From Akkermansia muciniphila (GTDB taxonomy: Bacteria; Verrucomicrobiota; Verrucomicrobiia; Verrucomicrobiales; Akkermansiaceae), in NCBI GenBank assembly GCA_945870545.1, contig CAMBTF010000009.1, forward strand, positions 1 to 15,018: 15,018 bases of DNA, written 5' to 3'. The notes under the pieces were generated by a model, which was not told the origin of the DNA, made no database searches, and was given only the letters and a program-made list of their open reading frames with translations. The translations under genes were made by a program, and so were the position numbers. Below are positions 5,906 through 10,241 of the stretch, one piece after another (position 1 is the stretch's first letter; each line of letters begins with the position of its first letter).

Positions 5906-6907
5906 TCACCTTGTGGAGGCGGGCAGCCATGCCCTCGCGCCCGCGCTGCGGCGTTCCGTCTCGCGGAAAAAACCGGTGAGGCCGCGTCTCCGTTCGAGGT
6001 CGTCGATGGCATCGGCCGCCTTGGGATGACGCCAGCGGAAGCCCGCCTCGCGCAGCCGCAGCGGATCCGCCCAGCGGCTTTTCAGCACAAGCTCTGTTTC
6101 CGTGTCCATGAACGCCGCGCCAATCTCCAGCATCCACTTCGCGGCGGGAACGCCGATCGGCATGCCGACGGTTTCGCGGAAATGGCGCATCAGCTCGCAG
6201 TTCGTCGGGAAATCGGGGGCGGTGACGTTCACGATGCCGTCCATGAATGGATCGCGGGCGATGAATTCCACGGCGCGCAGGAAATCGTCCATGTGGATCC
6301 AGCTCACCCGCTGGTTGCCTCCGCCCATCGTGCCGCCGAGTGCACGGTTCGTCAGTCCGGTCAGAACGTCATATACGGTGTCCGGCTCGTTCGCGAGCAC
6401 CATGCCGATGCGCAGGGCGCACTTGCGCGTCTCCGCCGGGACTTTCGCGCCGAAGAACGCGTTTTCCCATGCCTCCGCCACGCTATGTGAGAAGCCATTT
6501 CCTGCCTCGCCATGCCACTCGTCCTGAGGCTTGTCCTCGGCGTGGCGATACCATGTCGCCGTGCTCGCGTTGAGCCAGAGCTTCGGCGGCACGCGGCATT
6601 CGGAGATCGCGCGCCCGACCGCCTCGGTGGATTTCACCCGGCTGGCCATGATCTTTTCGCGGTTCTCGGGGGTGTAACGGCAATTCACCGTGCTGCCGCT
6701 GAGATTGATCACAAGCTCCGCCCCCTCCAGCGCGTAGGCCCAAGGTCCGTGCGATTTTCCATCCCATTGGAGGAACATGCCGTCGCCGCTCCAGCCTTTC
6801 TTGTTGCGGGCGATGGCGACGACCTCCCGACCGTTCCTAGCGAAATGGCGGCACAGGTAACGGCCGAGAAAACCGTTCGCGCCGATGATGACTGTCGTTG
6901 TGTTCAT
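5906..6907 (-). CDS. TIGR01777-family NAD(P)-dependent epimerase (YfcH-like SDR)
   Basis: 333 aa extended short-chain dehydrogenase fold; substrate unknown for the family. The dinucleotide motif GANGFLGRYL is at 9-18, followed by VVAIAR and, near residue 45, LQWDGKSHGPW. The family block VINLSGSTVNCRYTPENR, then IMASRVKSTEAVGRAI, is present. NASTATWY replaces the more usual SAxGxYG, and RIGMVLA, GNQRVSWIHMDDF and GIVNVTAPD follow in the expected order. It starts at ATG 6907, only 19 bases after the stop of the GbsR-like regulator, so it is probably the second gene of that operon and controlled by it. A second family member lies at 14169-15018. The position of the catalytic Tyr/Lys is less clear than in typical SDRs. 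Confidence 0.85.
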   Translation of the reverse strand: MNTTTVIIGANGFLGRYLCRHFARNGREVVAIARNKKGWSGDGMFLQWDGKSHGPWAYALEGAELVINLSGSTVNCRYTPENREKIMASRVKSTEAVGRAISECRVPPKLWLNASTATWYRHAEDKPQDEWHGEAGNGFSHSVAEAWENAFFGAKVPAETRKCALRIGMVLANEPDTVYDVLTGLTNRALGGTMGGGNQRVSWIHMDDFLRAVEFIARDPFMDGIVNVTAPDFPTNCELMRHFRETVGMPIGVPAAKWMLEIGAAFMDTETELVLKSRWADPLRLREAGFRWRHPKAADAIDDLERRRGLTGFFRETERRSAGARAWLPASTR

Positions 6908-6926
6908 TGGAAATGGGGTGCAGAGC

Positions 6927-7451
6927 TTACCCGAGAATTTTAGCGGCGAGTTGGATCGCGAGTCCGTGCCTCATCGAGGAGACACGGTCGGACATTTTAG
7001 AGGCGAATCCGACGAAATCCTCGAGCTGCTTCATCTGATTGTGGAATGCCTTCGCCTCCGCCCCCTTCAAATCCTTCGTCTCCGCTGCGCACTTGTTCAG
7101 CAGAGCGAGCGCGGGATCGATCTCACGTCGCTTCCTCTCGCGGGCTATGATCGTGAAAATCTGCCATACATCCTTTTCCGCCTCGTAGAAATCACGGCGG
7201 TCGCCTTTCACCACGATCATCCGCACGAGTCCCCAGTTCACAAGCTCCTTCAGGTTTGTGTGGGCGTTGCCGCGGCTGGCGGCGAGCGACTCCATGACCT
7301 CATCCGTACACATGGGTTGCGGCGAGGTCATTAACAACGCATGGATCTGCGCCATCGTCCGGTTGATGCCCCATTGGGTGCCGAGGGCGCCCCACTGCGC
7401 CACAAACTCGTCTCTCGCCCGCTCTAGTCGCTTATCTGTCGCAACCTTCAC
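6927..7451 (-). CDS. GbsR/MarR-type winged-helix transcriptional regulator
   Basis: 174 aa. The start REFV-like helix (RARDEFVAQWGALGTQWG, about 10-27), NRTMAQIHALLMTS and the HTH-like MCTDEVMESLAASRGNAHTNLKELVNWGLVR are typical of the GbsR family of MarR-like regulators. The wing reads VVKGDRRDFYEAEKDVWQIF. The C-terminal helices (about 95-170) should form the dimer region. The start is GTG 7451; no in-frame ATG precedes it before stop, and the next ATG would delete the first helix. There is no ribosome-binding site: the predicted transcription start falls at the GTG itself (see promoter entry). It is probably autoregulated and controls the epimerase gene downstream. The ligand is unknown; in Bacillus GbsR the ligand is choline, which need not apply here. 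Confidence 0.87.
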   Translation of the reverse strand: MKVATDKRLERARDEFVAQWGALGTQWGINRTMAQIHALLMTSPQPMCTDEVMESLAASRGNAHTNLKELVNWGLVRMIVVKGDRRDFYEAEKDVWQIFTIIARERKRREIDPALALLNKCAAETKDLKGAEAKAFHNQMKQLEDFVGFASKMSDRVSSMRHGLAIQLAAKILG

Positions 7452-7457
7452 GTTTTC

Positions 7458-7485
7458 ATTATTTACCGAAAGTTCGGTATTTCAA
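7458..7485 (-). promoter_or_regulatory. Promoter with 16-bp palindromic operator filling the spacer
   Basis: On the minus strand, TTGAAA (-35, 7485-7480) and AATAAT (-10, 7463-7458) are separated by exactly 16 bases, TACCGAACTTTCGGTA (7479-7464). These form 7-bp arms TACCGAA/TTCGGTA around a 2-base centre. Six to seven bases beyond the -10 box is the GTG start codon at 7451, implying a leaderless transcript. A dimeric repressor on this site would block RNA polymerase directly, so autorepression by the GbsR-like product is the natural reading. Box matches are 5 of 6 each by eye. Confidence 0.65.
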
Positions 7486-7513
7486 GGTATTTTTCGGGTT
7501 TTTTCGTGGGCGC

Positions 7514-7575: not shown

Positions 7576-7908
7576 TCAAAGGGAGGACTTGATCGAATCG
7601 AACTTGGCACGCTTGGCGCCGAGTTCCTTTTCGAGTTTCGAAATGTCCTGACCGAGGGTGAGCAGCGCGGCGAGTTTGCTTTGCATGCTTCCCTTGCTAC
7701 TGGCTTTCGAACTGCGCCCGGTCGTGCCTGCGCCCTTCAGCCAGGTGGAAATGGTGAGTTGCGAGACGCCAAACTTTTTGGCCGCCACGCTCTGGCCTCC
7801 GCGGCCGTTGGTTGCGTTGTGGCTCTCCACGAAGGAGACGATTTTGCTTTTTTCCTCTGCGGTGTAGCGTTTGCCGCGGACGATATCTTTCTTAGTTGAT
7901 GTGCTCAT
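7576..7908 (-). CDS. Small HTH protein with C-terminal coiled coil
   Basis: 110 aa. Residues 13-58 look like the IS3-type transposase OrfA / homeodomain-like helix-turn-helix: KRYTAEEKSKIVSFVESH, a GRGGQ linker, then SVAAKKFGVSQLTISTWLKG. A Ser/Gly/Lys-rich hinge (59-75) leads to a predicted coiled coil (about 76-108; LAALLTLGQDISKLEKELGAKRAKFDSI), suggesting a dimeric DNA-binding protein. No transposase catalytic partner or terminal repeats are adjacent, and it has its own terminator, so it looks like a domesticated or independent regulator rather than an IS remnant. Upstream (7909-7975) is a short AT-rich stretch in which I could not place a convincing promoter. From memory, proteins of this layout recur in Verrucomicrobiota, sometimes annotated as transposase. 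Confidence 0.8.
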   Translation of the reverse strand: MSTSTKKDIVRGKRYTAEEKSKIVSFVESHNATNGRGGQSVAAKKFGVSQLTISTWLKGAGTTGRSSKASSKGSMQSKLAALLTLGQDISKLEKELGAKRAKFDSIKSSL

Positions 7909-7975: not shown

Positions 7976-9088
7976 TTAATATTCCGATAACAAGGAAAGA
8001 ACAGCTGATTCCGCGAAGCTCTCCACCCAAACATCGGCTCCGGCTTTGACCTTTTCCCTAGAGACGATCCCGCCGAATCCAACCATCACATCGACATCAG
8101 GCTTGGTCTCAAGATCGGAGATCCCGTCGCCGATCATCACGACTCGGGCGGGCAAGGTCGCCCGTTTCCACTCGTTGATGATCTCGTTCTTGCCATGGTT
8201 GCGGGTTGTTGGGAAATCCGCGCCGTAGCCCGCGTAAGTGCCGTATTCATTGAAGAAAACCGGAACCGCCTCCACATGATTGATTCCGAGATGATCTGCC
8301 AGCGGCCTGATGAGCGGCTCGAATCCTCCGGAAAGAATCACCGGGATCCAGCCCTTCGATTTAGCCGTTACAATGAACTCACGCGCACCGGTAACGATAT
8401 GATCAATGTAAAGCCGGGCGACCTCGTCCGCCATGGATTGATTAGGTTTGATGATCTCCATCCTTTTTCCAAATACCTCATTCAAGGCCAAGTCACCGTT
8501 CATGGCAGCATTTGTCAAAGCGACGACTTGTGCAAAAATTGCAGGATCGGACAGGCGTGCCAGTTCGTCGATGCCTTCGATGGCGGACAATGTGGAATCG
8601 CAATCCACGAACAATAGTTTTGCTTTGGGTATGGTGACTGGATGGATGGTCACATTTGTTCCATCCGCGACTTCGTCGAATAGTTCGATCATATCCGTAT
8701 TCGCCAGGCGGATGCAGCCATGGCTCGATGGAGTGCCGAGCAGATCTTCGCGGTTCGTGCCGTGGATGTAGATGTAGCGCTCCAAGGTATTCGCGTTTTG
8801 ATCATCCAAGCCGTCGAGGCGCAGGATGCGGGATAAGATCAGGTCGCCGTCGCCACCATCCTGCGGATTCCAAATCCCGACCGGCACCCGCGCGTTGAAG
8901 CGGGTATAAATCGGCTCGCCGTTGCCGATTTTTCCCGCGATGGCGAAGTGTCCGGTGGGCGTGCGGAAACTACCGTCCACGAAGCCCATCCCCTTCTCGC
9001 CGCTGGAGATGCGGTAGGTGCGTATGAGTTCATCGCGACGGAAGAGGTCGAGTTCCTGGCGATCCAGGGAGATTTCAATGCGTGTCAT
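7976..9088 (-). CDS. YkuD L,D-transpeptidase/carboxypeptidase - phosphoserine phosphatase fusion
   Basis: 370 aa with two complete enzyme domains. Residues 1-150 are a YkuD domain: ISLDRQELDLF, YRISSGEKGMG, TPTGHFAIAGKIG, RYIYIHGT (H109) and the catalytic SSHGCIRL (122-129: H123, C125, R127). Residues 157-370 are a SerB-type HAD domain: FVDCDSTLSAIEGIDELA (D162, D164), LTNAAMNGDL, ILSGGFEPLI (S253), HGKNEI (K300), IGDGISDLE (D321, D325) and VGFGGIVSREKVK. The SerB domain should hydrolyse phosphoserine. YkuD proteins without a signal peptide, such as ElsL of Acinetobacter as I recall, act as cytosolic L,D-carboxypeptidases in murein recycling. ATG 9088 begins at the domain edge and overlaps the upstream synthase gene by 14 bases; longer starts to 9193 are unlikely. 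The linker between the domains is only about 6 residues. Confidence 0.9.
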   Translation of the reverse strand: MTRIEISLDRQELDLFRRDELIRTYRISSGEKGMGFVDGSFRTPTGHFAIAGKIGNGEPIYTRFNARVPVGIWNPQDGGDGDLILSRILRLDGLDDQNANTLERYIYIHGTNREDLLGTPSSHGCIRLANTDMIELFDEVADGTNVTIHPVTIPKAKLLFVDCDSTLSAIEGIDELARLSDPAIFAQVVALTNAAMNGDLALNEVFGKRMEIIKPNQSMADEVARLYIDHIVTGAREFIVTAKSKGWIPVILSGGFEPLIRPLADHLGINHVEAVPVFFNEYGTYAGYGADFPTTRNHGKNEIINEWKRATLPARVVMIGDGISDLETKPDVDVMVGFGGIVSREKVKAGADVWVESFAESAVLSLLSEY

Positions 9089-10241
9089 GGGAGTGATGGA
9101 AAACGGCGAGAGAGTTATGGCCGCCCAAGCCATGCGCAAGTTTGTAAACGGGGCCGAGGCATGGCGTGGTGGTCTCCGGTGCATCCATGCCACACGCTCC
9201 GAACGTTCCGGGAAGATTGGCGGGCAGCGTGGCGTCTTCCATGAAACGAAGCAAAATCACGCTTTCCAGCAAGCCGCTCGCCCCGACGGTGTGCCCGATG
9301 AACGGCTTGAGCACATGGAGCGTGGCTTTGCCGGAAAGGAAAGCCCGCTCGGCAGCGGCTTGCACTTTTGTACCGGTGGCGTGGGGGCAGATCGCGGCAG
9401 GTTCACTGCAGGTTGCGATCGCCTTATTGAGAAGCAGGCTTGTCCGACCACCACCTTTCGGGACGCCGACGGGATCCGCGCCATCCGAGTTGTTGGCAAA
9501 ATGCGTGATCACTGATTTGCCTTTTTCCGATTTGGAAAGCGCGATGGCGGCGGCTCCTTCGGCGGGGATGAAGCCGTCGGTGGCGGGGGAAAACGGGTTG
9601 AGCCGCGTGGCGGTGGCGAGCAGGCCGGAGTCCGCGTAGTTATCTAACAGTAGTGGCACGAGCGGAAGATCGACGGCGACCACTAGGGCGCGTTCCGCTT
9701 GGCCGGCATCGAGCAGGATTTTCGCGAGGCCTAGGGCGTCTAGGCCTGCCGAGCAGCCGCTGGCGACGAGGTGGTTCGGCCCGAACATGCCGAGCTCGAT
9801 GGAAATGGCAGTGGCGGGTTCACTGTGGATCGTGTTGCTGGCGGTCATCAGCTTGAAGGGCCGCCGCCCCGGCCACGAGCCGAGCCAGCCCGCCGCGTTG
9901 CCACGGCTGGTGCCGACGATGAGCGCTGCGTCGGCGAGTTGCTCCGCATCCCATCCGGCGGCGGAAACCGCCTGCCGCGCGACATGCAGCGCGGCCATCG
10001 AGGCGGGGCTCCATTTGCGATGGGTTAGCAATCGCCTTGGCTCGATCCAAGCGCCCGTCAGAGCGGCATGGCGGCTGTCGTTTCCCAACAGCTCGCCGAG
10101 CGGGCGGACCGCTGTTTCCCCACGTGAGATCGCCTGGAAATGCGATTCGACATCGTGCCCTAGGGAGGAGAGCGCGCCGAGGCCGACGATGGAAGGGTGT
10201 GAAGTGATGCCCTCCGGTAACAAGCCCAGCGCGAACGGCAA
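9075..10241 (-). CDS. Beta-ketoacyl synthase (KAS I/II-like condensing enzyme)
   Basis: Condensing enzyme of the fatty-acid/polyketide type, 388 aa. The N-terminal IVGLGALSSLG is at 18-28. The active-site cysteine is C163 (VASGCSAGLDALG), the first histidine H287 (CPHATGT), the lysine K312 and second histidine H317 (KPFIGHTVGASGLLE), so the Cys-His-His set is intact. The C-terminal GHNSLAVF glycine-rich strand is present. No ATG precedes the first motif; the frame starts at TTG 10241, with another TTG at codon 7 as alternative. No acyl-carrier protein, ketoreductase or malonyl transferase is nearby, so this is either a stand-alone enzyme or part of a scattered pathway. It overlaps the fusion gene downstream and is divergent from prmC, with 71 bases between starts. 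Confidence 0.88.
   Translation of the reverse strand: MPFALGLLPEGITSHPSIVGLGALSSLGHDVESHFQAISRGETAVRPLGELLGNDSRHAALTGAWIEPRRLLTHRKWSPASMAALHVARQAVSAAGWDAEQLADAALIVGTSRGNAAGWLGSWPGRRPFKLMTASNTIHSEPATAISIELGMFGPNHLVASGCSAGLDALGLAKILLDAGQAERALVVAVDLPLVPLLLDNYADSGLLATATRLNPFSPATDGFIPAEGAAAIALSKSEKGKSVITHFANNSDGADPVGVPKGGGRTSLLLNKAIATCSEPAAICPHATGTKVQAAAERAFLSGKATLHVLKPFIGHTVGASGLLESVILLRFMEDATLPANLPGTFGACGMDAPETTTPCLGPVYKLAHGLGGHNSLAVFHHSHDTH

Follow-up and report, generated by a model that had tools for sequence, protein, structure and literature searches.

A conserved gene fusion joins a YkuD domain to a SerB-like HAD phosphatase in Akkermansia muciniphila and its relatives

The window analyzed here is a stretch of 15,018 nucleotides from Akkermansia muciniphila (contig CAMBTF010000009.1). 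One of its genes codes for a single polypeptide chain in which a YkuD domain is followed by a HAD-IB domain (Table 1); the opposite (plus) strand of this region contains several stops. The YkuD domain was mapped with Pfam PF03734 (residues 3-148, 83.1 bits, cut-off 23.4), and the HAD domain with both PF12710 (residues 162-327, 44 bits, cut-off 27) and PF00702 (residues 157-327, 34.3 bits, cut-off 26.4). Catalytic residues of both domains are present, namely H109 and S122-H123-G124-C125 in the first, and D162/D164, S253, K300 and D321/D325 in the second. A preliminary description of this DNA had proposed exactly such a combination, YkuD and a phosphoserine phosphatase-like HAD in one frame of 370 residues, and the Pfam domains, the catalytic residues and the relatives all agree with it. 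The linker between the halves is short, as had been described, although it comes to about 7-8 residues (149-156) rather than to about six. The upstream ketoacyl-synthase-like gene has intact catalytic motifs, as judged by eye.

Table 1. Features of the window and the loci at which DUF1015 stands in place of the HAD half
Feature	Sequence	Position	Strand	Remarks
Fused gene, YkuD (ElsL-like L,D-carboxypeptidase, predicted) - HAD-IB (SerB-like phosphoserine phosphatase, predicted)	Window	7976..9088	-	370 aa; ATG at 9088, stop at 7976
YkuD half, residues 1-150 (about)	Window	8639..9088	-	No visible leader peptide
Junction, residues 149-156	Window	8621..8644	-	Corresponds to stop, short gap and ATG in two-gene relatives
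HAD-IB half, residues 155-370 (about)	Window	7979..8626	-	D162, D164, E171, M196, R209, S253, K300, D321, D325 kept
Ketoacyl-synthase-like gene, upstream of fusion	Window	9075..10241	-	Its stop overlaps the fusion start by 14 bases
Small helix-turn-helix gene, downstream of fusion	Window	7576..7908	-	Recurrent neighbour, one or two HTH repeats
DUF1015 in place of HAD half	L036	6621-7865	+	
DUF1015 in place of HAD half	L037	6040-7353	+	
DUF1015 in place of HAD half	L038	about 6531-7490	+	
DUF1015 in place of HAD half	L184	3938-5185	-	

All of the best 120 relatives (out of 2611 scored matches) contain both the YkuD and the HAD Pfam domains. The distribution of the fusion was followed in a panel of 59 genomes, comprising the source genome, 36 genomes of the same genus and 22 genomes of the same order from other families. 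The taxonomic spread of the two-domain proteins, a point raised in the preliminary description, can now be given: a frame extending across both halves occurs in 27 of the 36 same-genus genomes (the source genome not counted), and the fusion is found in none of the 22 same-order genomes outside the family. In G010, G011 and G035, which are among the 27, the spanning frame is truncated or broken at one end. Five same-genus genomes (G006, G014, G018, G026 and G031) have YkuD without HAD, G007 has HAD only, and G024 has only a HAD fragment, located at a contig edge; neither half was found in G020 (59% complete) and G036. The best 80 of 535 confirmed named loci consist of 52 fused loci, 11 with split but adjacent genes and 17 with HAD alone. 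These loci belong to Luteolibacter, Haloferula, Rubritalea (split genes) and MAGs of Akkermansiaceae or other Verrucomicrobiota, and the fused ones include isolates (Luteolibacter pohnpeiensis, L. marinus, Haloferula rosea and Haloferula sp. BvORR071). Homologs are thus not always encoded as two separate genes, in line with the preliminary description. At L027 and L029 (genomes G016 and G023), and also at L157 and L159, the HAD half is decayed, its catalytic Asp and Lys being gone, and the YkuD half is intact.

The YkuD-HAD fusion is real and conserved, the product of neither chance nor assembly. Fragmentation of the source assembly (317 contigs, 72% complete) might point to a sequencing or assembly artefact or to a frameshift, but this explanation is rejected because the same fusion recurs in isolates and in many independent assemblies. 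The fusion represents a new architecture built from known kinds of enzymes. No paper on a fusion of YkuD with a phosphoserine phosphatase was found among the open-access papers searched; one may have been published elsewhere.

The two-gene relatives bear on how the fusion arose. Nine of the 11 two-gene loci (found among the best 80 of 535) have their genes in phase, the YkuD stop preceding an ATG that opens the HAD gene (L147-L154 and L163), and the other two (L173 and L174) have genes in different phases that overlap through ATGA. The gap between stop and ATG is 6 bases in eight of the nine in-phase loci; that of Rubritalea profundi (L147) is longer and contains a second stop. In the YkuD tree (97 rows), 52 fused rows fall inside a clade of 58, and two further fused rows (L139 and L144) are loosely placed outside it. 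The fused label changes six times on the best tree, with two of the changes forced by well-supported branches (bootstrap not settled). Judging from the tree, the fusion may well have had a single origin followed by later losses. The most likely explanation for it is that two genes lying side by side lost the stop codon that separated them. Because relatives with the two-gene state exist, an accident of gene order followed by stop loss is sufficient to produce it.

The ancestral operon would have had the order ketoacyl synthase, YkuD, HAD, and the stop codon between the last two would then have been lost to give a single protein. The ketoacyl synthase gene is present in 45 of the 52 fused named loci (among the best 80 of 535) as well as in L147, and some of the seven exceptions are cut by contig ends. 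Over the 51 loci at which the two genes occur together (five are from YkuD-only genomes), the gap between ketoacyl synthase and YkuD has a median of 5 bases and stays within -30 to +60 in 50. A fatty-acid-type enzyme is thus tightly linked to a predicted wall-recycling YkuD. There is also a second kind of fusion, in which YkuD is joined to the C-terminus of ketoacyl synthase (G041 and G044; loci L045 and L047).

We consider it probable that the fused protein amounts to two independently working cytosolic housekeeping enzymes carried on one chain and joined by stop codon loss; the direction from two genes to one, and the lack of coupling between the reactions, we infer. An alternative is that the fusion couples the two functions, with shared dosage, assembly or allostery tying serine supply to wall turnover. 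The fused state has been kept in many lineages (52 of the 80 loci, the best of 535) and has a short linker, as such coupling might lead one to expect, but two-gene, unlinked, YkuD-only and HAD-dead states are all found in relatives, and HAD has decayed or gone missing while YkuD persists in G006, G014, G016, G018, G023, G026 and G031. A functional link of this kind is therefore unlikely, and the fusion can be explained without it, as it can without the co-regulation of serine and wall turnover that the preliminary description had left open. Among other HAD-IB fusions, the glycerol-3-phosphate dehydrogenase of Dunaliella (6iuy) likewise carries a phosphatase domain, a SerB-like HAD that shares its chain with a different enzyme. 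The two activities of the Dunaliella protein are consecutive steps, whereas the YkuD-HAD fusion joins reactions from unrelated pathways.

The best reading of the HAD half is that of the cell's phosphoserine phosphatase, which would make serine from phosphoserine in the final step of serine synthesis. It exceeds the cut-off of the HAD-IB subfamily model TIGR01488 (68.6 bits, cut-off 45). With the SerB model TIGR00338 it reaches 90.1 bits, below the cut-off of 144.15, which is passed in none of the 59 and none of the 191 genomes of the order, compared with seven of 14 controls. Of 56 distinct fusions, 54 retain the HAD motifs and the equivalents of the phosphoserine-site residues of human PSPH, and the other two have lost them. 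The best fold matches of the HAD half are phosphoserine phosphatases, and the HAD-IB cap is present. Compared with human PSPH and SerB, the HAD half is distinguished by its position behind a YkuD domain and by its score under the TIGR00338 cut-off; in the alignment with PSPH it also has Leu at the position of the lid residue Phe58. Another serB, which the preliminary description had suggested looking for, did not emerge: beyond the HAD half, neither the source genome (72% complete) nor any other genome whose fusion is intact gives a SerB match above 60 bits. The serine pathway is only partly accounted for: the SerC model TIGR01364 matches none of the 59 genomes, although SerA is present in 58 of them. 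A different SerC3 beside SerA in Akkermansia is described in PMC9026213.

Some HADs annotated as SerB serve as histidinol-phosphate phosphatases (Price 2018, PMC5764234). The HAD half might similarly act on another phosphate monoester (for instance histidinol phosphate, or else a phosphorylated amino sugar or muropeptide derivative), with serine coming from another enzyme. The score below the SerB cut-off would be compatible with this, as would the results for HisN, whose model cut-off is exceeded in only one of the 59 genomes, with sub-cut-off, inositol-phosphatase-like matches in 53, so that a histidinol phosphatase may be missing. However, the retained phosphoserine-site residues, the fold matches, the lack of a second SerB match above 60 bits and the mutual exclusion of HAD with both ThrH and DUF1015 (the model of the latter resembling kinases that bind phosphoserine) all favour phosphoserine. 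A changed substrate of the amino-sugar or muropeptide kind, left open in the preliminary description, is thus quite unlikely.

For the YkuD half, the most likely role is that of a cytosolic L,D-carboxypeptidase in murein recycling. This half would trim the terminal D-alanine off imported murein tetrapeptides, the job done by LdcA in other bacteria. H109 and C125 are invariant in all 56 distinct fusions, and H123 is found in 41 of them. The N-terminus (MTRIEISLDRQ) has no leader, as judged by eye, and since there is no signal peptide the YkuD half is predicted to be cytosolic. ElsL of Acinetobacter baumannii is a cytoplasmic, leaderless L,D-carboxypeptidase of the YkuD family that cleaves the tetrapeptide and can be replaced by LdcA; its orthologs have already been reported in all orders of Verrucomicrobia (2021, PMC8649774). 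The YkuD half resembles ElsL in being a leaderless domain of about 150 residues with a catalytic Cys, found in genomes without LdcA, and differs from it in having a phosphatase at the C-terminus. The words 'phosphoserine' and 'phosphatase' do not occur in the main text of the ElsL paper (PMC8649774). With this precedent, both the cytosolic location and the role in murein recycling put forward in the preliminary description hold as the best reading.

LdcA is above the cut-off in six of the 59 genomes, all of them among the eight without the cytosolic YkuD class. It is absent from all 51 genomes having this class, so that the two occur together in none of the 59. Because four of the six LdcA genomes come from one family, the independent exclusion events are few. 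As to another LdcA or YkuD in the source genome, a possibility considered earlier, the genome has no LdcA match and does have a second YkuD (L002, 1459-2046, minus strand), which carries a lipoprotein-type leader. The fused protein scores 102 bits with the ElsL model NF040925, below its cut-off of 270 bits, and is therefore filed as ElsL-like and not as ElsL proper. The exported-looking paralogue scores higher (119.6 versus 102 bits), and with the cut-off missed the ElsL score alone is insufficient to fix the class. These scores, and the fact that YkuD domains comprise both kinds, would allow the YkuD half to be a transpeptidase or some other peptidase. Such an assignment is nevertheless very unlikely for a leaderless domain joined to a predicted cytosolic phosphatase, in a genome whose own paralogue has the lipoprotein-type leader, and in view of the exclusion with LdcA.

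Genomes without a working HAD half usually have an uncharacterized DUF1015 protein, which may be its replacement. Intact HAD and DUF1015 occur together in none of the 59 and none of the 191 genomes, and one or the other is present in 186 of the 191; the genomes in these counts are related and not independent, and the P values ignore kinship. Intact HAD and ThrH likewise never occur together among the 59 genomes. ThrH was rejected as the main alternative to HAD, as DUF1015 is likewise present in 13 of the 14 genomes with ThrH, so that the exclusion pattern of ThrH falls within the DUF1015 pattern. The candidate enzymes sought are all absent in five of the 191 and two of the 59 genomes (G020 and G031). 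The exclusion of SerB and DUF1015 is not universal, because two control genomes, Bacteroides ihuae and Methanosarcina acetivorans, carry both. Both DUF1015 and ThrH are present in G016 and G023, in which the fusion is without HAD catalytic residues. In three genomes DUF1015 occupies the HAD-half position of the operon (Table 1).

DUF1015 comprises two subtypes, about 19% identical. The best matches of its predicted structure are the free serine kinases SerK and SbnI (5x0b, 5x0e, 6nr6 and 1vk1), with a low-confidence model (mean pLDDT 61.8) that covers one subfamily only; DUF1015 is larger than these kinases. At the sequence level it has no NCBIfam match and no PDB relative at 1e-3, and with 1vk1 its profile attains no better than E 0.55. 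On balance, we lean towards reading position three of the operon as a phosphoserine-to-serine slot, occupied either by HAD, whether fused or in an adjacent gene, or by DUF1015 (PF06245; SerK/SbnI-like fold), which would then be an unrecognized phosphoserine-consuming enzyme of Verrucomicrobiales. For instance, it could pass the phosphate of phosphoserine on to a nucleotide, as a serine kinase would when working in reverse. Among the open-access papers searched, none linked DUF1015 with serine, named PF06245, or linked a free serine kinase with phosphoserine phosphatase, although DUF1015 itself came up in two and together with phosphoserine in one; such papers may have appeared elsewhere.

None of the four known types of phosphoserine phosphatase is present in 450 gut genomes (PMC9026213), and the phosphoserine phosphatase gap in Desulfovibrio is described as unfilled (PMC5764234). 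If our reading of DUF1015 is true, this family would supply the final step of serine synthesis that is missing where bacteria lack SerB, and it is a testable candidate for the phosphoserine phosphatase still missing in many genomes. This lead may outweigh the fusion itself in importance. As for the fusion, two unrelated housekeeping enzymes would have been joined by the simplest route. Living relatives include two-gene and fused states as well as decayed and replaced ones, which makes it possible to trace what becomes of a fusion made by accident, and the case cautions against taking every fusion as a functional link.
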